23,040 nucleotides of DNA, taken from positions 1 to 23,040 of IMG/VR virus record IMGVR_UViG_3300048023_000464; one strand, written 5' to 3'. A program made the translations under genes and the position numbers. The DNA comes from a virus. Below, one piece after another: positions 3,773-23,040 of the stretch. Within the stretch, counting starts at the first letter, position 1; each line of letters starts with the position of its first letter. The notes under the pieces are model-generated. The model worked only from the letters and a program-made list of their open reading frames with translations. It did not search any database and was not told the origin of the DNA.

Positions 3773-5604
3773 GTAGAGTAAGAGATAAGGCAGATTTTCA
3801 ATTTGCAGGTGAAGATTATACACATGGTAGTGGAGTCAAATATGTAGCAAATATGATACAAACCACCGACTTAACAGCAAGTGGTAATATTGTAGATGTA
3901 CATTTACAAGACATACAAGATGTTGATGCAATATCAGCAAGTGACGATGGAAAAGTACTGTCTTATGACCATGCTACAACAAGTTTTAAGTGGGCATCAA
4001 GTGCCGCAGGAAGCACATTAACAATTCAAGACGAAGGCTCAACGCTTACAACTGATGCAACTACACTTAACTTTGTTGGCACAGGTGTTACAGCTAGCGG
4101 TACAGGAGCAACTAAAACAATTACTATCAGCAGTGGTGGTGGCGGTAGTATGAATGATCTTGTTGATGATGCAACTCCGCAACTCGGTGGTGACTTAGAT
4201 GTTAATGGAAACAGTGTTGTATATACTTTTAGTTTATCTGGCAGTTCGTCTCCTAACTATGTGTTTAGTGATACAAATAATCACTTTTTTACTAGTAGTC
4301 AAAATAATCCAACATTGTACCTTACTAGAGGAGTAAGATACGATTTTACTAATATTGCGGCAAACCACCCATTTAGAATTCAAAGTGTCAACAGTGCTGG
4401 CGGAGCACTTTATGTTGGTGGAGTAGTTAACAACGGCGGAACTAGTACAGTTAGATTTACACCTCCGATGAATGCACCGGATGAATTATATTATTACTGT
4501 GGTGCTCATAGTTCGATGAAAGGTATTATAAAAATTCTTGGCGGATCTGGTACAGGTGACATTTCTTTTAGTGGTAGTGTTATGAGCAGTAGTGGATCAT
4601 CTATTACAATAAATGATGCTTTAAACATCACAGGAAATTTAACAGTTAATGGTACGACAACAACAATAAACACAGCAACACTTAATGTAAGCGATAACAT
4701 TGTAGTGCTTAACAATGATGTAACTGGAACTCCAACAGAAAATGCAGGCATAGCAGTAGAGCGTGGAACTAGTGATAACGTTGATATAAGATGGAATGAA
4801 ACTACAGATAAATGGGAGTTTACAAATGACGGGACAACTTATAGTGATATAGGATCCGGTGGTAGTACTGGGGATATAAGTTTCTCAGGCAGTACAATGA
4901 GCAGTAGCGGTTCAACAGTAATAGTTGATGATGACTTATCAATAACGGGCAGTATAACAAGTACACAATCAGGTTCTCCTGTTATATCAAGTGCGAGTAG
5001 TCTTACACTAGAAGCTGATTCTAGCAGTAGAGTACATGTTAGTCAGAGTCCATTGAGATTGTACAACGTATCAACAACAAATAGAAATGCAATTACACTA
5101 GCAGACGGTGACATGGTTTATGATAGCACTCTCAATAAGACGTTTGTTGCTGAAAATGGTTCTTGGAAATCTTTATTTACAGCCGGCTCAGCAGGTGCAG
5201 GATCATCAAATCAGTTTATAGGATCTGTAATAGAAGAGTCAGCTACTTCAAATACAAATGCTGGTACTATTGTTTTCTATTCAAACGATTATCAAATTTT
5301 AAGATTAAATGTAGATCAACAAAACAACAGAACACTTTTTATAAGTGGAGACAGTGGTACTACATTTGATGGTAGCACATCTACTAATCAAGTTAGAACA
5401 CTAGCAGTGTCATTTCAAAATGGATCTACAGGTTATTATATAAGCACCGTACAAATTGATGGTACCACAGTTACACCTCAGTGGTCAGGTGGCTCAGCAC
5501 CAACTGCTGGTAATGCCAATAGTACAGATTGGTATACTTTTAGCGTAGTAAAAACAGGCTCAGCGACATTTGAAGTTTTTGGAACAATGACACAATTTGC
5601 GTAA
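3769..5604 (+). CDS. Fibre-like protein with an embedded cupredoxin-like copper-binding domain
   Basis: 611 residues; the start overlaps the previous stop as ATGA. The N-terminal part repeats the fibre units seen upstream (TIQDEGSTLTT...GTGATKTITI near residues 83-123, then PQLGGDLDVNGNSVV). Residues about 151-258 form a cupredoxin-like beta domain with NPTLYLTRG, HPFRI and YYYCGAHSSMKG. The candidate type-1 copper ligands are His200, Cys244, His247 and Met250. The Cys-x2-His-x2-Met spacing and the distant His match plastocyanin-like proteins and marine cupredoxin-like domains. A second fibre part follows, with a NLTVNGTTTTIN unit, two TGDISFSGS units and a variable C-terminal region rich in Ser, Thr and Gly. 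The overall role is a virion structural protein. Whether copper is bound, and why a virion would do so, is not known from sequence. Confidence 0.8.
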   Translation: MSRVRDKADFQFAGEDYTHGSGVKYVANMIQTTDLTASGNIVDVHLQDIQDVDAISASDDGKVLSYDHATTSFKWASSAAGSTLTIQDEGSTLTTDATTLNFVGTGVTASGTGATKTITISSGGGGSMNDLVDDATPQLGGDLDVNGNSVVYTFSLSGSSSPNYVFSDTNNHFFTSSQNNPTLYLTRGVRYDFTNIAANHPFRIQSVNSAGGALYVGGVVNNGGTSTVRFTPPMNAPDELYYYCGAHSSMKGIIKILGGSGTGDISFSGSVMSSSGSSITINDALNITGNLTVNGTTTTINTATLNVSDNIVVLNNDVTGTPTENAGIAVERGTSDNVDIRWNETTDKWEFTNDGTTYSDIGSGGSTGDISFSGSTMSSSGSTVIVDDDLSITGSITSTQSGSPVISSASSLTLEADSSSRVHVSQSPLRLYNVSTTNRNAITLADGDMVYDSTLNKTFVAENGSWKSLFTAGSAGAGSSNQFIGSVIEESATSNTNAGTIVFYSNDYQILRLNVDQQNNRTLFISGDSGTTFDGSTSTNQVRTLAVSFQNGSTGYYISTVQIDGTTVTPQWSGGSAPTAGNANSTDWYTFSVVKTGSATFEVFGTMTQFA

Positions 5605-5613
5605 GGATATTTG

Positions 5614-6996
5614 ATGCCAATTATAAGCACAACAGGTACAGCAACAGTCAAAGCATACGGCGGAATTGGAGCAGGTGCAGGCGGCACTGCTGAAGGTTCT
5701 GTAGAGTTCCTTACAGAAACAACTAATATTAATTCTCATCAATCATGGACAGTGCCGGCAGGTGTGACTAGTATAGATATATCCGCTATTGGTGCTGGAG
5801 GCGGTGGCGCACAAGGACTTTACTCGTCTGGATCCGGAGGCGGAGGCGGAGGTGGTGGATACGTCTATGTAAAAAACTTGACTGTAACTCCTGGAGAAAC
5901 ATTTTATTTCATAATAGGTAAAGCAGGAACAGGCGGCTATCAAAATACAAACTCTCCTTTTGAAACTGTAAACGGAGCAAGTCAAATATATCCTACTAAT
6001 CAAGTTAATGGAACTGACGGTGGAGACACACGCATAAGTTATACAGGTGATCCCAACTATAGTAGTCCTACAAGTTATATATTATCAGCCTATGGCGGAA
6101 AAAATCCTGGTGCATCTTCCAGTGGAGGTATCGGTGGCGGTACTAACTATGTTAATTGGGTGAACCAAAATGGAGATATAACAGTTTTAACTGGTTACAA
6201 TGGAAATACGCAACGAAGCTCTATTGAAGCTGGCGGAGGAGGCGGAGTCGCGTATGGCGGTATGGGCGGTTATGGTATAGGATCATTTCATCGAAGCACT
6301 GGAGGATTTAACTATCACAAAGCCGCTACTGGTGGCGATGGAGGCGGCATGCGTTTATACGGTGGAACAAATTCAGGTGGTAACGGAGCAGACGCACCAG
6401 CAATGGGGTTTACAAGTCCTTATAACTATCAAGTGGCAGGTGACGGTCAAGCTGGAGGAACTGGATCAACTACTGGCTACGGAGGTGGTGGTGGTGGCGG
6501 AGCCGGCGGACAAATTAGAAATCAAACTATATATTCTGGCGGTGGACAATTTACATATCGTTGGTTTTTAGGTAAAGCAGGAGAGGATGGAAAGCAAGGA
6601 GCAATAAGATTCTCATATCCTGGAACAGCTCCGGCAACACAAAGTTGGACAGGTGGCGAGGGAGTATCTGGCTCAGCTGTAACACACGGACAATGGAGAA
6701 CCACGTCTGACAGTACAACAAGTAATACTCAAATATGGATCAGACAGCAAACTACAGGAGGCAATTCACAAAGTACGTTAGCAGTTGGTCTTAGAAATGC
6801 ATTAAATAATTTATCCGTAGGTGATACTATTACCGTAGAAACATTTAATCCTGACAAAGTCTTTACTATCTCAGGTGGCATAAGTGTAGTGAATGGATAT
6901 TATGGTAATACAGATTATACCAGTTGGTTCTTTGATGTTGATGCACAAGGTTTAACCAGCAGTACATATTTTTACAGCTTTACTATTGAAGGATAA
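5614..6996 (+). CDS. Glycine-rich tail fibre/adhesin protein
   Basis: 460 residues from the ATG at 5614. AAGGA at 5603-5607 sits six bases upstream, which favours this ATG over the TTG at 5611. After a short leader the protein carries a Gly-rich domain (about residues 40-350). It begins with SWTVPAGVTSIDISAIGAGG, passes through a run of glycines, then YVYVKNLTVTPGETFYFIIG, and contains many GGxGG loops. The C-terminal 110 residues (from about WTGGEGVSGS) are not Gly-rich and look like a separate beta head. Gly-rich domains of this kind occur at the tips of phage fibres and in adhesins. The same scaffold, loaded with cysteine, recurs in the genes at 15694 and 17188. It ends a four-gene unit, and a late-type promoter follows directly. 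Confidence 0.75.
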   Translation: MPIISTTGTATVKAYGGIGAGAGGTAEGSVEFLTETTNINSHQSWTVPAGVTSIDISAIGAGGGGAQGLYSSGSGGGGGGGGYVYVKNLTVTPGETFYFIIGKAGTGGYQNTNSPFETVNGASQIYPTNQVNGTDGGDTRISYTGDPNYSSPTSYILSAYGGKNPGASSSGGIGGGTNYVNWVNQNGDITVLTGYNGNTQRSSIEAGGGGGVAYGGMGGYGIGSFHRSTGGFNYHKAATGGDGGGMRLYGGTNSGGNGADAPAMGFTSPYNYQVAGDGQAGGTGSTTGYGGGGGGGAGGQIRNQTIYSGGGQFTYRWFLGKAGEDGKQGAIRFSYPGTAPATQSWTGGEGVSGSAVTHGQWRTTSDSTTSNTQIWIRQQTTGGNSQSTLAVGLRNALNNLSVGDTITVETFNPDKVFTISGGISVVNGYYGNTDYTSWFFDVDAQGLTSSTYFYSFTIEG

Positions 6997-9158: not shown

Positions 9159-9551
9159 ATGACAGATATAGCACAAGCATTAACTGAACTAGGCATTACA
9201 GAATGGGTCTTAAGAGGAAAACCCACAAGCAAAGAAGAATTTGCCAGTATGTATGCCAAAGTAACAGGTGCAGACGCTAATGGTACAGCAATAGAAAGCA
9301 CAGCAGAAAGTGATTGGGGTTGTACTTGGGAAGATGTAAAAGCAAAAGCAGATGAACTTCTAGCCGCAGAACCTATGCGTTTATTGAGAGAAGAACGCAA
9401 TCGTAGAATTGCTACAAGCGACTGGATGGCTAACAGTGACGTTACAATGGCTGATGATTGGAAGACATATAGACAAGCACTCAGAGATATTACAGAATCA
9501 GCAACTAGTTTAGATGATGTAACATGGCCCACTGAACCAGGAGCAGGATAA
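9159..9551 (+). CDS. Phage tail assembly chaperone-like protein
   Basis: 130 residues from ATG, with AAGGA eight bases upstream. The C-terminal half (about residues 74-125) follows the pattern LREERNRRIATSDWM, DDWKTYRQALRDIT and VTWPTEP. This is the signature of the phage tail assembly chaperone family (Pfam Phage_tail_APC type), which usually sits beside tail fibre genes. The N-terminal half (AQALTELGITEWVLRG, then EEFASMYAKV and a Trp/Glu-rich helix) is a divergent helical part. The protein is mostly helical and charged, unlike the beta-rich fibres around it, so it fits a non-virion assembly factor. It shares one base (TAATG) with the following fibre gene, which suggests that gene is its client. 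Confidence 0.75.
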   Translation: MTDIAQALTELGITEWVLRGKPTSKEEFASMYAKVTGADANGTAIESTAESDWGCTWEDVKAKADELLAAEPMRLLREERNRRIATSDWMANSDVTMADDWKTYRQALRDITESATSLDDVTWPTEPGAG

Positions 9552-10925: not shown

Positions 10926-13900
10926 ATGGCTACGATTATAGACCTCGGAAAACTTAGATTTCACTTTGCAGGCACCTATGATGCCGCAACAGAATATGAA
11001 ATGAATGATATCGTCAAGTACGGCGGTAATGTTTATGTATATGCCAATGTGGTTAAGAGTACAGGAAACATTCCTACTAATAACGCATATTGGACATTAA
11101 TGATCGAAGGCTTCAAGTTTAGATCTGAATATGACGCGGCAACGCAATATCGTGTAGGCGATGGTGTTACACACGGTGGTAAAGTATATATTTGTGTATT
11201 AGATACACAAGGAAACACTCCTCCGAATCCAACATACTGGAGTCAATTTGCAGACGGTATTCAATGGGAAGGTGACTTCAACATTGCAACTGCATATCAA
11301 AAGAATGACCTTGTAAAATACGGGTCTCAGGTCTATATTGCAAAACAAGATACAACAGGTAATGCGCCAACAGATACAAACAACTGGGACAAATTTGTTG
11401 AAGGTATTAGTGCTGAAGGTGTATACAACTCAGCCTCTACATATCAACCAGGAGATTTAGTAGCATACGGTGCAAACATTTACAGATGTACACAAACATC
11501 ATTAGGTAATTTACCAACAAACCTTGCATACTTTGAAATTTTTAGCACAGGTAATGATTATCAAGGCGAATGGAATACTAGTTCTAACTACAGAGTTGGT
11601 CAAACAGTACGCTATGGCGGAAATGTTTATAGAGCAAAAGTTGACAATGTAAATACACAACCTGACACTAACACAACAGAATGGGAAGTGTTCAGTACTG
11701 GTGTGAGAACCAGAGGCGATTGGGCTACAGCAACCGACTATGCAATTAATGATATTGTTGCATATGGAGGTAACACATATGTTGTTTTAGAAGGACACAC
11801 TTCAGGTGTATTTGCAACAGATTTAGCCGCAAATAAATGGCAAAAATTTAATAGCGGTGTACGCTATATGGGCATATGGACAATTGGCGTCGACTATAAA
11901 AAAGACGATATTGTTAAAAACAGTGTGAGTACATATATTGCAAAAATAGATCATACAGCCGGCGCAGACTTCTTTATTGATTTGAACACAAATAATTATT
12001 GGGATGAATTTGTTGCAGGTGCTAGTTATGTGCTTCCAAATACAGCAGGTAATGCTGGTAAGTATCTACAAACACCAGATGGTTCAACATACAGTTGGCA
12101 GTTTAGTGGTGAAAATGACAAAATTTTCTATGTAAGTGAAGACTCAACTAGTAGTGCTGATGATGTAAATCACGGTGCGGCTATTGACTATGCGTTTGCT
12201 AGTGTTAGATATGCATGTGATTATATTAATGCAGACGTAGCAAACAGAACACCAGCTACAATTTTTATCAAAGACGGAACTTATAGTGAAGTGCTTCCGA
12301 TACATATTCCACCAAATGTTACTATTGTTGGTGATGGACAGCGTAACTGTATCATTCAGCCAGCGGCTGGTAATGGAGACAACGGTGTACCTAACGCAGA
12401 AGAAACTATGTTTTATGTGAACACAGGTACAATGATTGAGGGTGTAATTTTAAAAGGCTTAACAGGATTTAGTCTTGGCACTCCTGGAGATCCACTAACT
12501 AGTACAGTAAAAGGTTGCTATTTTAGATTAGAACCAGGTTCTACAATACTTAAATCACCTTACATCAAAGAATCAAGTGCGTTCTCAACTGGAGGCGTAG
12601 GTGCTATTGTTGATGGATCGGTTGTTGCCTCAGGCACAGCGGGTAGTATGGTGTTTCACACATTTACACAAGTGCATGATGGCGGTATTGGCTTTTGGGT
12701 AAGCAACAACGGATTGAGCGAGATTGTTTCTTGCTTTACTTACTACTGTGATTACGGATACGCAACAACAGGCGGCGGTAAGATTCGTGCATTGAACGGA
12801 AACAACAGTTATGGTATGTATGGTGCGTTGAGTGCTGGATATGATACAAACGAAGTAGCCGCAGATGGATATATCTATGGTGATACACTAACTTATACTA
12901 GAGCATCACTTAATACTACTGACGGGTTTACTGTGGGAGATAAAGTTACTCATGGTACAACAACTACAAACAAACCAGCAACAGCGGTAAGCATTGAACC
13001 AAACATGACCATTACTACTGCAAAAGATGCAACGGTGTCAGCAGTAACACAAGCTAACCCAGCAAGTGTAACAGCTACAGCTCATGGATTTGCAACAGGG
13101 CAGTCAATTAGTTTTGCAGGCGTAGTTGGAATGACAGAACTTAATGGTAACAGTTATACAATTACAGTAGTAGATGCAGACACATTTACACTAGATGGAA
13201 CAGACAGTAGTGGATTTACAGCATACACCAGTGACGGTACAGCAACACTAGGCGGAGCACACGGCTTTGCAGACGGTGATATGATGGCATTTAAAGACGT
13301 ACTGCCAAATGATTGGGCAAAGACATTAGGTAGTCATGGCACAGCTAGCATGTACAATAGAACTTGGTATGTTGATGTTGTTGATTCAACAAGTTTTAAA
13401 GTTTGTACAAACCCAGACTTAACAAATTATTTTGATAGTAGTGCAATTAATGGGTGGAGTACAGTAACAGAAGTAATTGCTGATGCTACTAGAAGTAATC
13501 CAGTTATCTTAACAATAACAGGACACGGATATAGTAACGGACAGGAAGTAAAAAATATTACTGGCGTAGTTGGTATGACAGAACTTAACAACAATACATA
13601 CTATGCAAATAATGTAACAGCGAACACAATTGAATTGTTCAGTGATGCTGGCGTAACAACTTCATTAGATGGTACTGGATTTGGTGCTTATGTAAGTGGC
13701 GGTACAGCAAGTAGACTTATTACAGGTACATTATTTACAAGTGGAACAATGATACATTACGGTGCAACTACATCGGAAATTGCAAATATTCAAACAAACA
13801 TTCAGCCAGCGGCTAATCACAGATTAGTTGTAAACAATACAAGAAAAGGTTATACAGGTAAAACAGTTAAAGTATCAGTAGTTGATGCAGGACACGGACT

Positions 13901-15665
13901 TGGAAATCAATATGTGTTTGATGGGGAACTACTTGGTTCACATAAAATGGATACACTACATAGACTGTATATCTTTGAACAGAACGATGACAGTAATGAT
14001 GGACACCCACTGTACTTTAGTGAAACACAAGACGGCATTCATAATGGTGGAACAGAATTTAATCCAGTTAAAGATGCTATAACAGGACTAACAGGAAGTG
14101 CAGTTGAATACTACTTAGATGGTGCCAAAGTAGCTGATTTAGCCGCATACGCCTCTGGATTTAATGCCGCAACCAACAGAGAAGTTTGGATTGTAGGAGC
14201 GGCTCCAACAAGTAACAAACTTTACAGTGTATGTTATAGTCATCCAGGAATGGGTGGTGGTACTAGTTATACAGCTACAAGTGCTACATACGAACCAACA
14301 ACTGGTATTATGACAATGGATATCGGAACGCACGGATTGAATGTTGGTGCTAACCTTGAAATATCACAAGACAGTATGATTTGGACTTGTGCTCAGGACA
14401 GTCACGGAACAAATCACACATATCCAAGAGCAACAGACCCTGCTAAGAATAGTGTGTTTGTAAAAGTTATTCAAGCAACCAGCACCACAGTTACAGTAAA
14501 TGTTGGAATAAGCAGTAATGTTTCAGATCATATATTTGTAAGTGCAACAGCAGGTGCAATTCACACAGCATACAGTGATAAACCAACTATTGTGTATACT
14601 ACAACTACACAACACAGTTTAGCTGACTCCCATTGGGAAAGATTCTCTGGTATGTACAGGACAGAACTAGTAGCCAATGGAACAAGAATTACTGCTGACG
14701 ATGGACAGTATGCAGATTTAGCAATAGACGGATCAAAAGGTCAGCATGGATTTAGCCTTGTACTAGCAGGACTTAGTGAAATACCAAGACCAGGTGCAAG
14801 TATTGAATTTGTGTCAGGTCCTACATACTCACCGGCAGACAACACAGATATAACTGCAACACAAAATGTTGGCTTAGATACAGTAAGTTACATTGTATCA
14901 AACGTTAGTGGATATCAAGCTAGCACTGATCCTACAGTACTAGGTACATGTACAATTACTATTGCTACAGAAAAGCCAGTTACTAGTGATACATATTACG
15001 GACAAAGATTTAAGTTAAGATATAAGTATAGTCAGACACGATTAACAGGACATGACTTCCTAAGCATTGGTACAGGTGGTAGAGCAACAACCAACTATCC
15101 AGGAGAACCTACCCAACCAGCGGCTCAAGGACAAGAAGTTACAGAGACATATCCAGGTCGTGTTTATTATGTAAGTACAGACCAAGACGGTAACTTTAGA
15201 GTTGGTAACTACTTTAGAGTTGACCAATCAACTGGTAGAGCTACATTGGATGCTAGTGCGTTTGACCTAAGTGGTTTGACAAGTTTGAGATTGGGTAGCA
15301 TCGGTGCTCAGTTAGGTGAAAGTATTAATGAATTTAGTGCAGATGGTTCACTTAGTGGTAACAGTAATACAGCGGTTCCAACAGAGCAAGCTGTTAAAAC
15401 ATACGTTGATTCACAAACACAAGTTGCAATCGCGGCGGCTAACAATGCTAAATTGTCTGCACCGTTTGATATAGCTGATACAACTAGAAATACTGCTGGT
15501 CAACTTGTTGGTACCACTAACGAAACAGTTCAATATAGTAATATTACATACGATTCAAGTAGTAATATTACAGGTTATGAGGAACTATCAACAACTGGTG
15601 TAACCAAAACTGTAGCGGCTACTTACTCATCTGATGGCAAAGTATCCACTGTAACGGTGACATAA
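10926..15665 (+). CDS. Giant tail fibre/adhesin with carbohydrate-binding-like repeats and beta-helix
   Basis: 1579 residues from ATG, with AGGA eight bases upstream. Residues 12-365 are seven tandem repeats of about 50 residues. Each has a Trp or Tyr near the start, then x-Y-x-x-(G/N)D-x-V-x-Y-G-G-x-x-Y, then G-x-x-P and W-x-x-F-x-x-G, resembling chitin-binding type-3 (CBM5/12-like) modules. Residues about 396-660 look like a pectin-lyase-type beta-helix (PATIFIKDGTYSEVLPIHIP, NVTIVGDGQ). Two units around residues 711-775 and 857-930 follow HG(F/Y)..G......GV.GMTELN..(S/T)Y, similar to the E1 FCCH-like repeats reported in phage proteins. The C-terminus (YPGRVYYVSTDQDGNFRVG, then FDLSGLTSLRLGS, then VPTEQAVKTYVDSQ) is typical of large structural proteins in marine T4-like phages. 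It is probably a long host-recognition fibre or baseplate spike with glycan binding; catalytic activity cannot be claimed. Confidence 0.8.
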   Translation: MATIIDLGKLRFHFAGTYDAATEYEMNDIVKYGGNVYVYANVVKSTGNIPTNNAYWTLMIEGFKFRSEYDAATQYRVGDGVTHGGKVYICVLDTQGNTPPNPTYWSQFADGIQWEGDFNIATAYQKNDLVKYGSQVYIAKQDTTGNAPTDTNNWDKFVEGISAEGVYNSASTYQPGDLVAYGANIYRCTQTSLGNLPTNLAYFEIFSTGNDYQGEWNTSSNYRVGQTVRYGGNVYRAKVDNVNTQPDTNTTEWEVFSTGVRTRGDWATATDYAINDIVAYGGNTYVVLEGHTSGVFATDLAANKWQKFNSGVRYMGIWTIGVDYKKDDIVKNSVSTYIAKIDHTAGADFFIDLNTNNYWDEFVAGASYVLPNTAGNAGKYLQTPDGSTYSWQFSGENDKIFYVSEDSTSSADDVNHGAAIDYAFASVRYACDYINADVANRTPATIFIKDGTYSEVLPIHIPPNVTIVGDGQRNCIIQPAAGNGDNGVPNAEETMFYVNTGTMIEGVILKGLTGFSLGTPGDPLTSTVKGCYFRLEPGSTILKSPYIKESSAFSTGGVGAIVDGSVVASGTAGSMVFHTFTQVHDGGIGFWVSNNGLSEIVSCFTYYCDYGYATTGGGKIRALNGNNSYGMYGALSAGYDTNEVAADGYIYGDTLTYTRASLNTTDGFTVGDKVTHGTTTTNKPATAVSIEPNMTITTAKDATVSAVTQANPASVTATAHGFATGQSISFAGVVGMTELNGNSYTITVVDADTFTLDGTDSSGFTAYTSDGTATLGGAHGFADGDMMAFKDVLPNDWAKTLGSHGTASMYNRTWYVDVVDSTSFKVCTNPDLTNYFDSSAINGWSTVTEVIADATRSNPVILTITGHGYSNGQEVKNITGVVGMTELNNNTYYANNVTANTIELFSDAGVTTSLDGTGFGAYVSGGTASRLITGTLFTSGTMIHYGATTSEIANIQTNIQPAANHRLVVNNTRKGYTGKTVKVSVVDAGHGLGNQYVFDGELLGSHKMDTLHRLYIFEQNDDSNDGHPLYFSETQDGIHNGGTEFNPVKDAITGLTGSAVEYYLDGAKVADLAAYASGFNAATNREVWIVGAAPTSNKLYSVCYSHPGMGGGTSYTATSATYEPTTGIMTMDIGTHGLNVGANLEISQDSMIWTCAQDSHGTNHTYPRATDPAKNSVFVKVIQATSTTVTVNVGISSNVSDHIFVSATAGAIHTAYSDKPTIVYTTTTQHSLADSHWERFSGMYRTELVANGTRITADDGQYADLAIDGSKGQHGFSLVLAGLSEIPRPGASIEFVSGPTYSPADNTDITATQNVGLDTVSYIVSNVSGYQASTDPTVLGTCTITIATEKPVTSDTYYGQRFKLRYKYSQTRLTGHDFLSIGTGGRATTNYPGEPTQPAAQGQEVTETYPGRVYYVSTDQDGNFRVGNYFRVDQSTGRATLDASAFDLSGLTSLRLGSIGAQLGESINEFSADGSLSGNSNTAVPTEQAVKTYVDSQTQVAIAAANNAKLSAPFDIADTTRNTAGQLVGTTNETVQYSNITYDSSSNITGYEELSTTGVTKTVAATYSSDGKVSTVTVT
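10959..12020 (+). repeat. Seven tandem ~50-residue carbohydrate-binding-like repeats
   Basis: Repeat boundaries in protein residues are about 12-62, 63-111, 112-160, 161-209, 210-259, 260-311 and 312-365. Conserved positions are a Trp/Tyr at the first strand, D-x-V-x-Y-G-G/S/A-x-x-Y in the centre and an aromatic-x-x-F-x-x-G end. The DNA copies are strongly diverged. The seventh is the most degenerate: it lacks the YGG core and has a longer loop. Confidence 0.75.
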
Positions 15666-15693: not shown

Positions 15694-17163
15694 ATGGCAG
15701 ATATACTAGTACATAATGCAATAAAAGACATAGAAGCGGCTATTAATCAAGGCTCGTCTAAAATTAATTATGGTCCTATGTTGGGAAAAACTTTAAAATT
15801 GTATATTAAAGATATTATTGATGCTAATGCAACTGGTCCATATGGTACGCCAGGCGGCGGAGCTGGTAATGCAACACAGCCCATTTGTGATTTGTCAAAT
15901 TATTTGAAAATCTCATATTGTTTGTGTGCTTATGCTGGATCTGGTACTAGTTGTACTGATACTTTTTACAACTGTCCTGTAGGTTGTCCAAGTGGATGTT
16001 ATAGTGTTTGGAGAGATAAAACAGTGCTTCCAGGAAATCCAGGCGGTTCGGCTGTTGGTAAATCAGACGTAAGAACATTTATACTTAATGTAGAATCAAG
16101 TAATAACGGTTTAAAAGTACTAGAGGCAATTTATACTGCTTCAACTACTGAAGTTGAAAACGACATGTATCTTGCGTATTTGGGCTTAAAAGCAGACTAC
16201 GAAGCCGCGGCAGATGACGATGTGTTATTTGCTTGGTATGGCATCGGCGGCAGTTATCCACAAGGATCTAGAATTAGTAATACAGATTACATTAAAGTAT
16301 GTGGCGGTAGTTGGATGAACGGAGAAGGTGCAAACTGTACATGGCAAGTACCAGCAGGAGCCACTTGTGCTAGATTCCAGTTATGGGGTGCAGGACAAGG
16401 ATCAAATCCAGGATGTTGTTGTGGCGGTTCGCCAGGCGGCTCAAACGGTGCATACACTGAGATGACAATTAAAGTTACACCAGGTGATTCATACACAATT
16501 TGTGCAGGATGTGCCCAAAACGGTTGTTGTTGTAGTGCATATACTCCAGCATATGGTTGTATGAGTTATGTTACTGGAAACGGAATCTGCTGTTTGAAAG
16601 CAGACGGAGAATTTTGTTACAACACAAACTGTGAAAGTTTTAGATGTGTTAAAGTTTGTACTGGATCAGCAGGCGGTGGATGTTGGTATTGGGGAAGCCA
16701 ATACTGTACTAACTCAGGACACTGCTGGTGTTCGCAAGGTGAATATTGTGCAGTAGGTTGTAGCACCTGTGGTGTTGTACCAGTATATGCTAACTGTTGG
16801 ACAAGTGGAGGTGGACAGTTCTGTAACTGTGCTACTACAGCATGTGACATTGCAGGAATGACTGGCGAAACTATGGGAATGAGAGGATTAATTGGCGGTG
16901 GTTGCTTTGATACTAACCACTACGGTTATCACATTAGACCACCAATCGTTCATGCAGACACTGGATTAATGTTTTCGGATACATGTGGTTGTTATTGTCA
17001 ACAAATGCAAGGCGGTTCATGTTGTGGTGGTGTATATGCAATCAGCTGGGGTGCCCACCCAGGTCATGGCGGATTTGCTACACATGTTATGGGCGGAGCA
17101 AATCAGTTTTATGGTATGCCTGGCAAAGGCGGAATGGTACAGGTATCATGGGTAACAACGTAA
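15694..17163 (+). CDS. Cysteine- and glycine-rich fibre/adhesin protein, paralogue 1
   Basis: 489 residues from ATG, with AGGAA seven bases upstream. I count 42 cysteines (8.6%), against very few in the neighbours. The N-terminal 60 residues (MADILVHNAIKDIEAAI...) are helical and cysteine-free. The middle contains a VENDMYLAYL unit. From residue about 208 a Gly-rich scaffold begins (CTWQVPAGATCARFQLWGAG, NPGCCCGG, TIKVTPGDSYTICAGC), homologous to the 5614-6996 protein but loaded with Cys. Further motifs are YGCM, TGNGICCLKADG, GEYC, CSTCGVVP, GGGCFDTN, GSCCGG and HPGHGG. There is no signal peptide. The arrangement is not a simple zinc-finger repeat. A disulfide-stabilised or metal-binding fibre tip is an inference; the function is unknown. 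Confidence 0.75.
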   Translation: MADILVHNAIKDIEAAINQGSSKINYGPMLGKTLKLYIKDIIDANATGPYGTPGGGAGNATQPICDLSNYLKISYCLCAYAGSGTSCTDTFYNCPVGCPSGCYSVWRDKTVLPGNPGGSAVGKSDVRTFILNVESSNNGLKVLEAIYTASTTEVENDMYLAYLGLKADYEAAADDDVLFAWYGIGGSYPQGSRISNTDYIKVCGGSWMNGEGANCTWQVPAGATCARFQLWGAGQGSNPGCCCGGSPGGSNGAYTEMTIKVTPGDSYTICAGCAQNGCCCSAYTPAYGCMSYVTGNGICCLKADGEFCYNTNCESFRCVKVCTGSAGGGCWYWGSQYCTNSGHCWCSQGEYCAVGCSTCGVVPVYANCWTSGGGQFCNCATTACDIAGMTGETMGMRGLIGGGCFDTNHYGYHIRPPIVHADTGLMFSDTCGCYCQQMQGGSCCGGVYAISWGAHPGHGGFATHVMGGANQFYGMPGKGGMVQVSWVTT

Positions 17164-17166
17164 ATA
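17159..17166 (+). promoter_or_regulatory. T4-like late promoter motif (CGTAAATA)
   Basis: CGTAAATA encloses the upstream TAA (17161-17163) and lies 21 bases before the next ATG. It keeps the TAAATA core but differs from TATAAATA in the first two bases, so it is the weakest of the set. Confidence 0.5.
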
Positions 17167-17187
17167 TATTAAAGGAACGGATAAACA

Positions 17188-18597
17188 ATGGCTGACATTA
17201 TAGTACAAAATGCAATTTCTAAGGTAGAAGCCGCTATTTCAGCAGGTGCCAGCGGTATTGATTACAAAGGTGTGTTTGGCATATCTTTACTTGATAAAGT
17301 TAAACAACTTATCGAAGCAAATGAAACAAGTGGATTATACAGCATAGGCGGCGGTTCAGGCGGTAGATACTTGTGTGATTTGTCTAATCATTGTTATATG
17401 TCACTATGTCAATGTAACTACTCAGGTAGTGGACAAAACTGTAGTTGTGTATATGTTACCAGCAATGTATGGACAGACGGAGTAATTTTAAGTTCTTCAG
17501 GTAGTACGCCTACAAAATCAGATGTAAGAACAAAATTTGTATCACTAGATTCACTTTTATCAGCAGTTTATGACATTGGAACAACAGACGTAGAAAACGA
17601 TTTATATTTTGCATATTTGGCGGCAAGACCAACATATGTAGATGGTTCTAATACAAATATTAAGCAGTACTGGTATGGAGTAGGTATTCCACCAGGATCA
17701 GGCTCGCCACTCAGTGCGACAAATAAAATAAAAGTTTGTGGAACAAACTGGCAATATGGCGAAGGCGGAACATGTACATGGACTGTACCAGTTGGTGCAT
17801 CAATGGCTAAATTCCAAGCATGGGGTGCAGGCGGCGGTTCCAATCCAGCATGTTGCTGTGGAGGCGCTGTTTTTGGCGGAACTGGAGCATATGCAGAGAT
17901 GGTAATTAATGTTACACCAGGTGACACATACACAGTATGTGCTGGTTGTAGTTGTCAAAGATATTGTTGTAGTAACACAGATCCAGGATATGGATGTATG
18001 AGTGGTGTAACAGGAAATGGTATTTGCTGTTTCAAAGCAGACGGATCACACTGTTATCAAGTTAGTTGTATTGCGTTAGACTGGTTGAGAGTAGCTAGTG
18101 GTGCACCAGGTATGCCAGGTGGTAACTGTAGAAGATTCCAAAATCCATACTGTACAACTTCAGGACCATGCTTTTGTAGTTATGGTGAATATTGTTTTGA
18201 TAACAGTTGTAGTACTTGTGGTGTTGTTCCTATATTGATAGAATGTTGTAACTATCAAACTTATTGTAGCTGTGCAACAACAGCCGCAGTAGTTTCAGAT
18301 GGGACATGTAACGGCGGGTATAGAAGTTTAATAGGCGGTGGTTGCTTTGACACAAACAACTACGGATGGCATACTAGACCACCAATACTTGATTCAGATA
18401 CTGGCTTAGTATTTGGTTGTACTCAAGGTTGTTCATGTGCATATTTTGACAGTGGTACATGCTGTGGAGGCTGTAATGGTAGAAACTGGACTTATCATCC
18501 TGGGCATGGCGGTTCATACACACATGTTATGGGCGGTACAACTTATCACAAAGGTGATACAGGACGAGGCGGATTGGTACAAATATCATGGAGCTAA
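17188..18597 (+). CDS. Cysteine- and glycine-rich fibre/adhesin protein, paralogue 2
   Basis: 469 residues from ATG, with AAGGA at 17172-17176. I count 40 cysteines (8.5%). It aligns end to end with the preceding protein: MADI(L/I)V start, T(E/D)VEND(M/L)Y(L/F)AYL, CTW(Q/T)VP(A/V)GA, CCCGG, YT(I/V)CAGC, TGNGICC(L/F)KADG, GEYC, CSTCGVVP, GGGCFDTN, CCGG, HPGHGG and THVMGG. Most cysteines sit at the same aligned positions, while the loops between them differ. The conserved Cys framework with variable loops suggests selection on a fixed scaffold carrying changeable surfaces. It has its own late-type promoters before and after it, so the two paralogues can be made separately. The function is unknown beyond a probable fibre or adhesin role. 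Confidence 0.75.
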   Translation: MADIIVQNAISKVEAAISAGASGIDYKGVFGISLLDKVKQLIEANETSGLYSIGGGSGGRYLCDLSNHCYMSLCQCNYSGSGQNCSCVYVTSNVWTDGVILSSSGSTPTKSDVRTKFVSLDSLLSAVYDIGTTDVENDLYFAYLAARPTYVDGSNTNIKQYWYGVGIPPGSGSPLSATNKIKVCGTNWQYGEGGTCTWTVPVGASMAKFQAWGAGGGSNPACCCGGAVFGGTGAYAEMVINVTPGDTYTVCAGCSCQRYCCSNTDPGYGCMSGVTGNGICCFKADGSHCYQVSCIALDWLRVASGAPGMPGGNCRRFQNPYCTTSGPCFCSYGEYCFDNSCSTCGVVPILIECCNYQTYCSCATTAAVVSDGTCNGGYRSLIGGGCFDTNNYGWHTRPPILDSDTGLVFGCTQGCSCAYFDSGTCCGGCNGRNWTYHPGHGGSYTHVMGGTTYHKGDTGRGGLVQISWS

Positions 18598-18629: not shown

Positions 18630-19397
18630 ATGGCAGATGTAGAAATTAAATACACATTCAAAATACCAGATGAGCCGTATATCAATGATTTTTCTGGTGG
18701 AAAAACCAAAGAATTCACCTATATCGGCCCAGATGTACTTACAGTGACTTGTCCAAACGATAATAATGGATTTACGTCACCGTATACACAAAGTTTAACG
18801 GGACCTGTTTATGATGGTGAAATATCAGTAGACATTGATGTAACAGCAAATCCAGAGCTTTTACCTATAGCAGATTTGTTATGGGGGGCACAGCCTGACG
18901 CTGAAGCAACATTCGACGAAGAAACACTCGAAGATGGTACAAAGTATCTAGAACAAAACAATAGAACAATACATGATTATTATTGGAAACCAAGAGGCGA
19001 GTTAAATGATGACGGATCTTTTAAAGGTTGGATTTTAGACGATGATAATGTAGCTATCTTAAGTATGTTCGAAAGAGATGCATTATCTCCAAAGCAAAGA
19101 ACTTACCTAGGAAAAGCTGATATGTTCATCGAAATCTTAGATCAATTTGATTTGCCTGATGACGAAGCGGCACTACTTACTGCTTATAAAACAGCGGTAG
19201 AAACGTATCGTAGCAAAACAGCATTGCCTTGGAAATATCCAAATTCTAATCCAGTAGATGCTGAAGCACCTAAGATGCCAATGCAGTTAGTGAGCAGAAG
19301 AAATGAAATCAAAGCCGCAGGCTTAGATGACTTGAAAAAAGAAGATGATGCTGACACTAATGCAACTCCTGGTGTTGGTCACGGCGAAGCAAACTAA
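18630..19397 (+). CDS. Acidic protein of unknown function, possible fibre assembly factor
   Basis: 255 residues from ATG, with AAGGA seven bases upstream. I do not recognise a family. The first 85 residues are beta-like (VEIKYTFKIPDEPYIND, LTVTCPNDNNGFTSPY, GEISVDIDVTANPE). Residues about 100-220 are helical and charged, with two Trp-rich spots (YYWKPRG and ALPWKYPN). The tail is acidic and disordered-looking (KKEDDADTNATPGVGHGEAN). The beta domain plus helical part and the YRxKxxxPWKYP stretch loosely recall tail fibre assembly proteins, and it follows two probable fibre-tip genes, so a chaperone role is a weak inference. It is the last gene of the late-promoter series. Confidence 0.6.
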   Translation: MADVEIKYTFKIPDEPYINDFSGGKTKEFTYIGPDVLTVTCPNDNNGFTSPYTQSLTGPVYDGEISVDIDVTANPELLPIADLLWGAQPDAEATFDEETLEDGTKYLEQNNRTIHDYYWKPRGELNDDGSFKGWILDDDNVAILSMFERDALSPKQRTYLGKADMFIEILDQFDLPDDEAALLTAYKTAVETYRSKTALPWKYPNSNPVDAEAPKMPMQLVSRRNEIKAAGLDDLKKEDDADTNATPGVGHGEAN

Positions 19398-20537: not shown

Positions 20538-22418
20538 ATGTCAGACCATGACCAAGAAGGTATCTACAGAGTAGTGCGAACAAATACTACTCGAAAACAA
20601 ACTGGCTATATTTTAGCTATTGCAAGAGGACACAATGGCGGCGCCTGCTTGCTTAAAGATGGTAAAATTGTTTTTAGCATCGAAGAAGAAAGATTAAGTA
20701 GAAGAAAATATGATGGCGGGCCGTTTGCCGCTATGGTAAAAACTTTAGATTATACAAATAGAATTGATGCCTTAGTTATTGCACATACCCAATCACTTAT
20801 TGAAACTGCCGCCACAGTTGATTATGCTGGAGATGATGTATATAGTGGAATGGCTAGAAAACTTGGACTTATCGATCCTAAATTAGAAAGCGGATACAAG
20901 ACTACACATCCGCAAGTATATGACCTGTCTGGAATACATCACAAACTACATGCTTCTTGTGCATTTTATCGTAGTGGCTTTGATAAAGCAGTTGCAGTTA
21001 TAGCAGATGGAGCAGGAACATTTTATCCACTTAATAATGAAAAACAAGCTATAGTAGGTTATGAGGTTGAAAGTATTTTTACCTGCGAGTATCCTTCTAG
21101 TATTAATACTATATACAAACACATGGGTACTACTGATATTAAAACCTTTTATCAAGGTCCTATTATGTTAGAAGATCCATTAACTGGTCAAGAAAGTCTT
21201 GAGGTCTTAATCTCTGATCGTGCTGGTATTACGAAAACATACGAAGCTGTAACTGATTATTGTGGATTTGCTGAAATCGAAGCAGGTAAGACAATGGGAT
21301 TGTTTCCATACGGTAAGCCTAATGATAATATTCCTCCATTATATGAACAATATGGAGAAAATCGACTTTCTAGTAGATCTATGTTTGTGCCTAACTATCC
21401 AAATGGCGCATTTGTAAACAATGGATTATATTCAGCATTGCAATCATTTGATGATGATCCTGACGTGATTCAAAATGTTAATCACATGAGACCTGATCTT
21501 ACAAAACTACAAAATCGTAGAGATATGGCTTATGCAGTACAAACACAATCGCAAGAAGAAATGGTTAACATTATACGCAAAGCAGTAGACAGTACTGGAT
21601 GTAATAATGTTGTTATAAGTGGCGGATACGGTCTTAACTGTGTTGCAAATTATCATTATCTAGAAGCACTTAAAGACCAAGACATTAACATTTATGTTGA
21701 ACCTGTAAGTAATGATGCTGGTACTGCAATGGGTGCCGCATTGTATTATCATCACCATATAACACAATCAATGGAAAAGACACCACAAACACTTTACTTA
21801 GGGCCTGCTTACTGCTACAATCAAGAAGATATTGATTCTCTTGCAACAGAATATGATGCAACTGTTAGTGATGCTTCACAAGAAGATATTATTGATTTGT
21901 TAGAAAAAAGAGAGATTGTTAGCATCTTCCAAGGACGTTGTGAAAATGGACCTCGAGCATTAGGCAATAGAAGTATATTGTATGATCCAAGAGACCCAGA
22001 CGGTAAAGATCATGTGAATGAAATAAAAAGAAGAGAATACTTTAGACCATTTGCTGGAACTATACTTGCTGAAGATGTACACGATTGGTTTGATTTACGT
22101 GGTATGCAAGACAGTCCGCATATGATGTATGCAGTTAACTGTCAGCAAGGAGTAGAAGAAAAGATTCCGGCTATTATACATGTTGACGGAACATGTAGAA
22201 TACAAACAGTAACTGAAGAAGAAAATCCAAACTACTACAATTTAATCAAAGCGTGGAAAGAACGTACTGGTGTTCCTGTTATATTCAACACTAGTTTTAA
22301 CTTAGGCGGAGAGCCATTGGTTGAAACATTAGAAGATGCATTATGGACATTGCAACAAAGTGATATTGAATATTTGTATCTTCCTGAATATGGTAAGTTA
22401 ATTACTACTAAGAACTAA
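20538..22418 (+). CDS. NodU/CmcH/TobZ-family carbamoyltransferase
   Basis: 626 residues from ATG, with GAGG at 20529-20532. The family normally transfers a carbamoyl group from carbamoyl phosphate, through carbamoyl-AMP, onto a hydroxyl of a sugar or antibiotic. The N-terminal Kae1-like domain is clear: ARGHNGGACLL and SIEEERLSRRKYDG (about 29-60), the metal-binding H-x3-H in HHKLHA (His134, His138), ADGAG, SGGYGLNCVAN, and SNDAGTAMGAA with Asp393. The C-terminal YrdC-like domain starts near residue 462 with FQGRCENGPRALGNRSILYDPR, followed by FRPFAGTIL and FNTSFNLGGEPLV. All family hallmarks are intact and the length is normal. Carbamoyltransferases are frequent in marine T4-like phages. Paired with the glycosyltransferase, it probably decorates a glycan on the virion or host. 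Its end overlaps the convergent bilin reductase gene by 11 bases. Confidence 0.93.
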   Translation: MSDHDQEGIYRVVRTNTTRKQTGYILAIARGHNGGACLLKDGKIVFSIEEERLSRRKYDGGPFAAMVKTLDYTNRIDALVIAHTQSLIETAATVDYAGDDVYSGMARKLGLIDPKLESGYKTTHPQVYDLSGIHHKLHASCAFYRSGFDKAVAVIADGAGTFYPLNNEKQAIVGYEVESIFTCEYPSSINTIYKHMGTTDIKTFYQGPIMLEDPLTGQESLEVLISDRAGITKTYEAVTDYCGFAEIEAGKTMGLFPYGKPNDNIPPLYEQYGENRLSSRSMFVPNYPNGAFVNNGLYSALQSFDDDPDVIQNVNHMRPDLTKLQNRRDMAYAVQTQSQEEMVNIIRKAVDSTGCNNVVISGGYGLNCVANYHYLEALKDQDINIYVEPVSNDAGTAMGAALYYHHHITQSMEKTPQTLYLGPAYCYNQEDIDSLATEYDATVSDASQEDIIDLLEKREIVSIFQGRCENGPRALGNRSILYDPRDPDGKDHVNEIKRREYFRPFAGTILAEDVHDWFDLRGMQDSPHMMYAVNCQQGVEEKIPAIIHVDGTCRIQTVTEEENPNYYNLIKAWKERTGVPVIFNTSFNLGGEPLVETLEDALWTLQQSDIEYLYLPEYGKLITTKN

Positions 22419-22427
22419 CTTCAGGAA
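22381..22427. repeat. Inverted repeat spanning the convergent gene ends
   Basis: TTCCTGAA (22381-22388) and TTCAGGAA (22420-22427) are perfect 8-base inverted copies around a 31-base loop that contains both stop codons. An alternative inner stem, AAGTTA (22395-22400) with TAACTT (22416-22421), overlaps it. There is no T-tract, so a bidirectional terminator is possible but weakly supported. Confidence 0.3.
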
Positions 22428-23040
22428 ACAAACAATCTTGAATAAAATGTCGTATATCATCTGGATCAAGCCCTAGTGCTTCCATAGCTTTGGGTGTATG
22501 TGGGTTTTGTTTCTGGTAATGACAGTATCTGTTTTGTTTACGTTTGATTTGATCTACATCTAATGTATTACTAGTGTATTTAGGTAGTTCTTCAAAGTAC
22601 ATGTCTAGATTATCTAATGCCATAGTTACAACTTGATCCATTTCATCTACTTTTACATTACTTGCGGCTACCATATGTTTACTGAATATAGCTTGAGCCC
22701 AAGGAGGAAGTTCACGTTCTTTCTTCCATTCTAAATCTTGTACACAATCTCTAAACAAATGACACATAGAATGTTCCCAATCTACAGTAGGTGAATAGTC
22801 ATGGAAAGCACCAGTAACTTTGTTTTTACCTGCTATAATATCAAATCCGTATATAGGAGCATCATTGTCAAACTTTGGAAATACACATATATGAGTCATA
22901 TACAAACCTTTCGAGTCTCTGGCATCTACACTGTCTATATGTGCTCGTCTAAAATGTTCACCTTGGTATACTTTATTAAGCCAATCGAACTCTGGATCGT
23001 CAAAATTTTCTTTTCCTAAACTAGCACATTTCGCAATAAT
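22408..23040 (-). CDS. pcyX: Ferredoxin-dependent bilin reductase, PcyX-like, N-terminus beyond window
   Basis: 210 residues are visible to the TAG at 22408-22410. The frame stays open to the right edge, so the TTG near 22905 is internal and about 20-45 N-terminal residues are missing. The fold family reduces biliverdin IX-alpha to phycobilins with ferredoxin electrons. FRRAHID, THICVFP, APIYGFDIIAGKNKVTGAFHD and RELPPWAQAIFS, and near the end NRYCHYQKQN, align along PcyA. The catalytic His-x16-Asp pair of PcyA (His88/Asp105) is kept as His50 and Asp67 of the visible fragment. The position of PcyA Glu76 (in HLE) is Asp36 here (in HID), with two extra residues before the His. That Glu-to-Asp change with a retained Asp/His pair is reported for phage PcyX, which makes phycoerythrobilin. 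PcyX is therefore the best call; a PcyA or other clade member remains possible. Confidence 0.9.
   Translation of the reverse strand: MIAKCASLGKENFDDPEFDWLNKVYQGEHFRRAHIDSVDARDSKGLYMTHICVFPKFDNDAPIYGFDIIAGKNKVTGAFHDYSPTVDWEHSMCHLFRDCVQDLEWKKERELPPWAQAIFSKHMVAASNVKVDEMDQVVTMALDNLDMYFEELPKYTSNTLDVDQIKRKQNRYCHYQKQNPHTPKAMEALGLDPDDIRHFIQDCLFPEVSS

Follow-up and report, generated by a model that had tools for sequence, protein, structure and literature searches.

Tandem cysteine-rich proteins of T4-like cyanophages and other aquatic phages as probable fibre-tip adhesins

In T-even phages of the S16 and PP01 type, the gene for gp38 lies downstream of that for the distal fibre, and its product combines conserved glycine motifs with variable stretches; we know of no cysteine enrichment in T-even gp38. 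The receptor-binding fibre of cyanophage Pam3, gp24, which its describers compare with S16 gp38, is a trimer that combines a helical region for docking with a TNF-like domain and a glycine-rich tip (39% Gly), in which extended loops are stacked at a spacing of about 5 angstroms and the distal end varies; folding of gp24 needs a Tfa-like chaperone (gp25) that is absent from the virion, and the paper does not mention cysteine or disulfide (PMC9608196). In the tail of Agrobacterium phage Milano, inter-subunit disulfides must break for the tail to contract (PMC10811340).

Two tandem genes in a tail-fibre cluster

The window (the whole 23,040-base stretch analysed, positions 1–23,040 of IMG/VR virus record IMGVR_UViG_3300048023_000464) looks like part of a T4-like cyanophage genome, with tail-fibre genes, a carbamoyltransferase and a minus-strand bilin reductase. 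A sequence-only reading had picked out two adjacent paralogues with 42 and 40 cysteines, which the open reading frames and a 51% identity between the products bear out (Table 1); copy 2 is the orthologue of the downstream copy in a related phage. The two copies have cysteine in common at 34 of 41 aligned cysteines, compared with 48% identity at non-cysteine sites, so the cysteines do occupy largely conserved aligned positions as had been claimed. The CC and CCC runs are likewise genuine, adjacent cysteines (i+1) being enriched relative to locally shuffled sequence (z 7.6 and 12.3, two alignments). The remaining genes of fibre or tail type in the window are, again as read earlier, nearly free of cysteine (0–1.2%), and the next-highest content, 2.9%, belongs to the bilin reductase (a ferredoxin-dependent enzyme nearest to PcyA-type models, encoded on the minus strand at 22408–23040 and running off the window end).

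Chance composition is rejected, the probability of 42 and 40 cysteines at a 0.6% background being about 1e-34 and 1e-32, respectively. A sequencing or frame artefact is also rejected, because independent contigs and isolate genomes carry these reading frames unbroken. The accompanying claim that phage tail proteins seldom use many cysteines has a known exception, the disulfide network of the Milano tail, though its cysteine content is only 2.1% (PMC10811340).

Table 1. Features of the cysteine-rich module, in window coordinates
Feature	Coordinates	Strand	Size and composition	Remarks
Large tail fibre	10926..15665	+	1579 aa	Precedes the adhesins
Cysteine-rich adhesin, copy 1	15694..17163	+	489 aa, 42 Cys (8.6%)	Predicted role
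Copy 1, N-terminal region	15694..16236	+	Residues ~1–181	Mostly helical (model); conserved MADILVxNAI start
Copy 1, TNF-like and Gly/Cys-rich receptor-binding domain (predicted)	16279..17160	+	Residues 196–489
Cysteine-rich adhesin, copy 2	17188..18597	+	469 aa, 40 Cys (8.5%)	Predicted role
Copy 2, corresponding domain	17716..18594	+	Residues ~177–469	Alignment with copy 1
Probable tail-fibre assembly chaperone	18630..19397	+	255 aa	phrog_9740; relatives match Phage_tail_APC

Family, neighbourhood and predicted fold

The family to which these proteins belong is large and undescribed, recurring in hundreds of aquatic phages that include many uncultivated T4-like phages. Scans of IMG/VR and isolate phage records gave 261 distinct homologues at 184 loci, each with at least 6% cysteine and most with 8–11% (the patterns of the early scans were partly cysteine-containing, and this bias was checked with two cysteine-free DNA patterns). 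Long and short members form one family by profile comparison (E 4e-30). PHROGs 35878 and 4205 between them cover the homologues and list their function as unknown; the earlier statement that no function has been described is correct for the sequence family. With tblastn against phage records, relatives were found in P-SSM2 and P-SSM5 (two copies each) and, via these, in S-SSM7, S-SSM6a and Sf-FS3 (three copies), and also in S-CAM1 and S-CAM3; every isolate-phage relative is annotated as hypothetical.

A gp23-type capsid gene is present in 14 of the 22 long contigs tested, and photosystem II reaction-centre genes in two of them. One short-member contig has a capsid protein closest to those of jumbo phages (e.g., PA5oct and Vibrio phage 2.275.O). 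The family therefore extends beyond cyanophages, and no psbA match was found in this jumbo-phage-like lineage carrying homologues. No relative was returned by a search of bacterial genomes that reached close relatives of one subgroup. Literature searches, mostly outside subscription journals, gave no paper on cysteine-rich cyanophage fibres or on these gene names, and we found no virion proteomics of a phage with the family.

Two or three tandem copies are present at 173 of the 184 loci. In a tree of 120 family members, the label for tandem position changes five times among two-copy loci (about 25 times with shuffled labels) and ten times among three-copy loci (20 with shuffled labels); since tandem positions fall into their own clades, the copies are not recent duplicates but separate slots maintained over a long time, locus L005 being among the exceptions. 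The module order (large fibre, cysteine-rich genes, then a glycosyltransferase-like gene and a carbamoyltransferase) is shared by the window, P-SSM2, S-SSM7, S-CAM1, S-CAM3 and locus L008, and from this synteny the large fibre is the probable carrier of the adhesins. A phrog_9740-type gene, identified with a profile built in this analysis, adjoins the cysteine-rich copies at 161 of the 164 loci with sufficient flank, and its members match Phage_tail_APC (Pfam) and tail-fibre-assembly PHROGs. In the window this gene is a divergent one: its PHROG match is weak, and tblastn aligns it with the P-SSM2 gene. Its product is probably the folding chaperone for the adhesins.

Other genes of these clusters have features of their own. 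The large fibre contains five CBM_5_12 and two E1_FCCH domain-type stretches (Pfam), and a second tail assembly chaperone is encoded elsewhere in the fibre cluster (9159–9551, Phage_tail_APC 1.8e-15). The product of 3769–5604 matches phrog_677 (baseplate wedge tail-fibre connector); its residues ~150–257, ending YYCGAHSSMKG, look cupredoxin-like by eye, a resemblance that searches of Pfam, NCBIfam and PDB sequences did not bear out. At L008 (7200–10887), chaperone-like genes alternate with cysteine-rich genes, following the first and last copy, and the second chaperone-like gene has a C-terminal extension. A 106-aa protein accompanies the module in P-SSM2 and S-CAM1; a relative of it is encoded next to the tail genes of AcaML1 (L185, Acidithiobacillus; 3998–4309), an unrelated acidophile phage.

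Structure prediction, proposed by the sequence-only reading as a check, was run with AlphaFold on copy 1 (74 sequences, pLDDT 71.6, pTM 0.64) and on a short homologue (33 sequences, pLDDT 73, pTM 0.75), giving models of medium quality from input alignments without rows of the named phage collection. The best solved match is a receptor-binding fibre fold: the Pam3 fibre comes top for both models in a second-look aligner, with residues 196–489 of copy 1 matching 7ypx at Z 13.1 (180 residues, rmsd 3.0) and the short homologue matching at Z 20.1 (211 residues, rmsd 6.6) and Z 19.0 (194 residues, rmsd 2.5). The next solved matches are the Bxb1 tail tip and the glycine-rich domain of ALK/LTK; by plain Foldseek E-value, Bxb1 and ALK rank above Pam3 for copy 1. 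Among predicted viral structures, the P-SSM2 and S-CAM3 relatives match best, followed by many glycine-rich-domain proteins, and a PDB sequence search gave no useful match. By analogy with Pam3 gp24, the N-terminal region of copy 1 is probably a docking part, the model being unreliable at residues 53–119 and 170–187. The match to a solved receptor-binding fibre, together with cysteine being the most conserved residue, upholds the earlier picture of a fibre-like adhesin with a fixed cysteine framework and variable loops.

We are fairly confident that both gene products are fibre-tip adhesins, deducing function and fibre location from these comparisons. The PHROG listing of unknown function would also suit another secreted or assembly protein, which we consider very unlikely given the fold match to receptor-binding fibres, the chaperone adjacency and the tail-fibre synteny.

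Cysteine content, retention and pairing

Two DNA patterns for F[QE]xWG[AG]GG, neither with a cysteine codon, were run against IMG/VR so as not to favour cysteine-rich members, the motif itself deriving from the cysteine-rich family. The scan returned at least 213 distinct frames, at least 12 with <1% cysteine and at least 201 with 5.7–14.6%, and no frame with 1–5% among the matches listed. Among these listed matches, mean Gly+Cys is 30.5% in the glycine class (0.3% Cys, 30.2% Gly) versus 30.2% in the cysteine class (11.1% Cys, 19.1% Gly), for a glycine class that is small (at least 12 frames) and a site-by-site alignment of the two classes that is partial. As the sum is about 30% in both classes, cysteine seems to stand in for glycine, and about a third of the glycines usual for the fold appear, on composition, to be replaced by cysteine. 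The window also encodes, at 5611–6996 (TTG start, 461 aa), a protein with a classic cysteine-free Gly_rich_2 domain; a glycine-type relative of the cysteine-rich fold is thus encoded in the same phage.

Cysteine is the residue most retained between sister pairs (0.85 and 0.92, with glycine at 0.81 and 0.84, serine and alanine at about 0.5 and histidine at 0.48–0.51), and in 71 close pairs cysteine sites change at 1.3% versus 5.9% for all sites. This retention argues that cysteine is not an interchangeable small residue. Were it a mere small filler in a tight lattice, without special chemistry, the constancy of Gly+Cys across classes would follow; we reject this inert reading on retention and hold it extremely unlikely, since cysteine is seldom exchanged for serine or alanine, is retained above glycine and tryptophan, and is all-or-none in content. 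Cysteine is found in at least 85% of members at about 11–12 columns (near-invariant residues of copy 1: 203, 215, 242, 243, 270, 273, 279, 280, 346, 352 and 433), and the remaining 15–23 cysteines per chain are lineage-specific. In the long group, polar residues (R, N, Y, Q) account for most replacements at majority-cysteine columns.

If all cysteines were held in disulfides, whether within a chain or between identical chains, even counts would be expected. Counts are even in 61 cases and odd in 58 (70% clusters), summed counts are even at 30 of 59 two-copy and 16 of 32 three-copy loci, and lone and double cysteine changes are about equally frequent in close pairs. In the absence of an even-number bias pairing cannot be complete, and many chains must hold at least one unpaired or metal-bound cysteine; parity in single copies, tandem sums and sister pairs disfavours an all-disulfide model, and an incomplete disulfide network may form. 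Co-loss of cysteine columns, from which disulfide partners might be read, gave no clear pair, the changes being too few.

The parity result bears on two further readings of the same residues. The cysteines might be thiols exposed on the protein surface that engage the host chemically, so that attachment is covalent or triggered by redox state; parity predicts unpaired cysteines, and the polar replacements at majority-cysteine columns are those of exposed positions. We nevertheless judge this very unlikely, because the best-kept cysteines belong to the common framework and not to the variable loops, thiols open to air-saturated water would become oxidised, and we know of no host thiol partner.

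The main rival is that, in the same adhesins, cysteine clusters of neighbouring loops act as thiolate ligands for Zn, Cu or Fe, metal loaded in the cell holding the lattice or helping the tip to dock to a metal-uptake receptor. CC, CCC and CxxC runs are present (CC and CxxC spacing being the likeness seen to a metallothionein-like metal-thiolate protein), the cysteine core is near-invariant, and metal sites do not need the even-number rule that the family lacks. Potential iron-binding domains have been proposed in fibres of marine phages (PMC11705849), which would suit such sites. Against this, histidine is poorly retained, so that the ligands would be cysteine alone, and Pfam and NCBIfam gave no match to a known metal-site family; we regard metal binding as a tentative alternative.

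Proposed mechanism and comparison with known systems

We lean towards a reading as fibre-tip adhesins in which thiol chemistry stiffens the glycine lattice, most probably through disulfides that join some of the cysteines once the host cell has lysed. The two adhesins would be receptor-binding tips on the long tail fibre encoded just upstream, each with an N-terminal, mostly helical docking part followed by a TNF-like beta domain, the strands of which would continue into extended loops; these would stack into a lattice and present variable residues to the host. In ordinary members glycine forms this lattice; in the present proteins cysteine appears to occupy about a third of those glycine positions. 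Chains would be synthesised in the cell with their cysteines reduced, the adjacent 255-aa protein probably acting as folding chaperone, and after lysis an incomplete set of disulfides, built on the roughly 11 near-invariant cysteines, would link close-spaced loops, CC and CCC runs facing different neighbours. Such cross-linking would stiffen the tip and leave the loops free to vary. We infer the cysteine-for-glycine substitution, the cross-linking and its timing. Geometry favours cross-links, the loops of Pam3 being 5 angstroms apart, a spacing within the usual distance for disulfides. Seawater would not be essential to disulfide formation after lysis, given homologues in the jumbo-phage-like lineage that lacks a psbA match. 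A cysteine-thiolate lattice in place of the glycine lattice, comprising metal clusters or a switchable thiol/disulfide network and making attachment at the cell surface metal- or redox-dependent, is a less likely possibility.

Neither the fold nor the probable role is new in kind. For the all-or-none cysteine version, its wide occurrence and its tandem slots we found no earlier description in the literature searched (mostly outside subscription journals). The family is labelled hypothetical in well-studied isolates (P-SSM2, S-SSM7, S-CAM1) and in hundreds of uncultivated phages; should it prove to form the tip that recognises the host, many marine T4-like phages would gain candidate receptor-binding proteins. 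The glycine-or-cysteine split also poses a chemical question, namely what use a fibre built in a reducing cytoplasm makes of 20–50 cysteines per chain.

Proteins of the same family as those of the window are found in PHROGs 35878/4205 and include PSSM2_304 and PSSM2_306, listed as hypothetical or unknown. Milano likewise has unusually cysteine-rich tail proteins and provides a precedent for disulfide networks in phage tails, but its cysteines lie in sheath, tube and baseplate parts, at about 2.1%, in an unrelated family (PMC10811340). T-even gp38 resembles the present proteins in its position after a fibre gene and in having conserved glycine motifs with variable stretches; S16 gp38 (6F45) gave no match in fold lists or sequence searches, an absence that does not amount to exclusion.

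Gly_rich_2 (PF21722) matches 35 of 120 members at E up to 0.1 (short members, 25 of 42; long members, 10 of 78; best 2.8e-11), many homologues scoring over the whole domain and some above the curated cut-off of 24.3 bits, among them a 262-aa S-SSM7 homologue (26.4 bits). The two window proteins themselves have no Pfam match, Gly_rich_2 included, and Gly_rich_2 contains about 0% cysteine, in contrast to 8–11% in the family. In predicted fold the closest likeness is to Pam3 gp24 (PDB 7YPX/7YFW), whose TNF-like and lattice fold recurs in the models of copy 1 and of the short homologue (Z 13.1 and 20.1); as in gp24/gp25, a mostly helical N-terminus precedes the domain, which here starts near residue 196, and the neighbouring gene is chaperone-like. 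Pam3 has a single, glycine-rich fibre protein, whereas here two or three cysteine-rich paralogues follow a large fibre.
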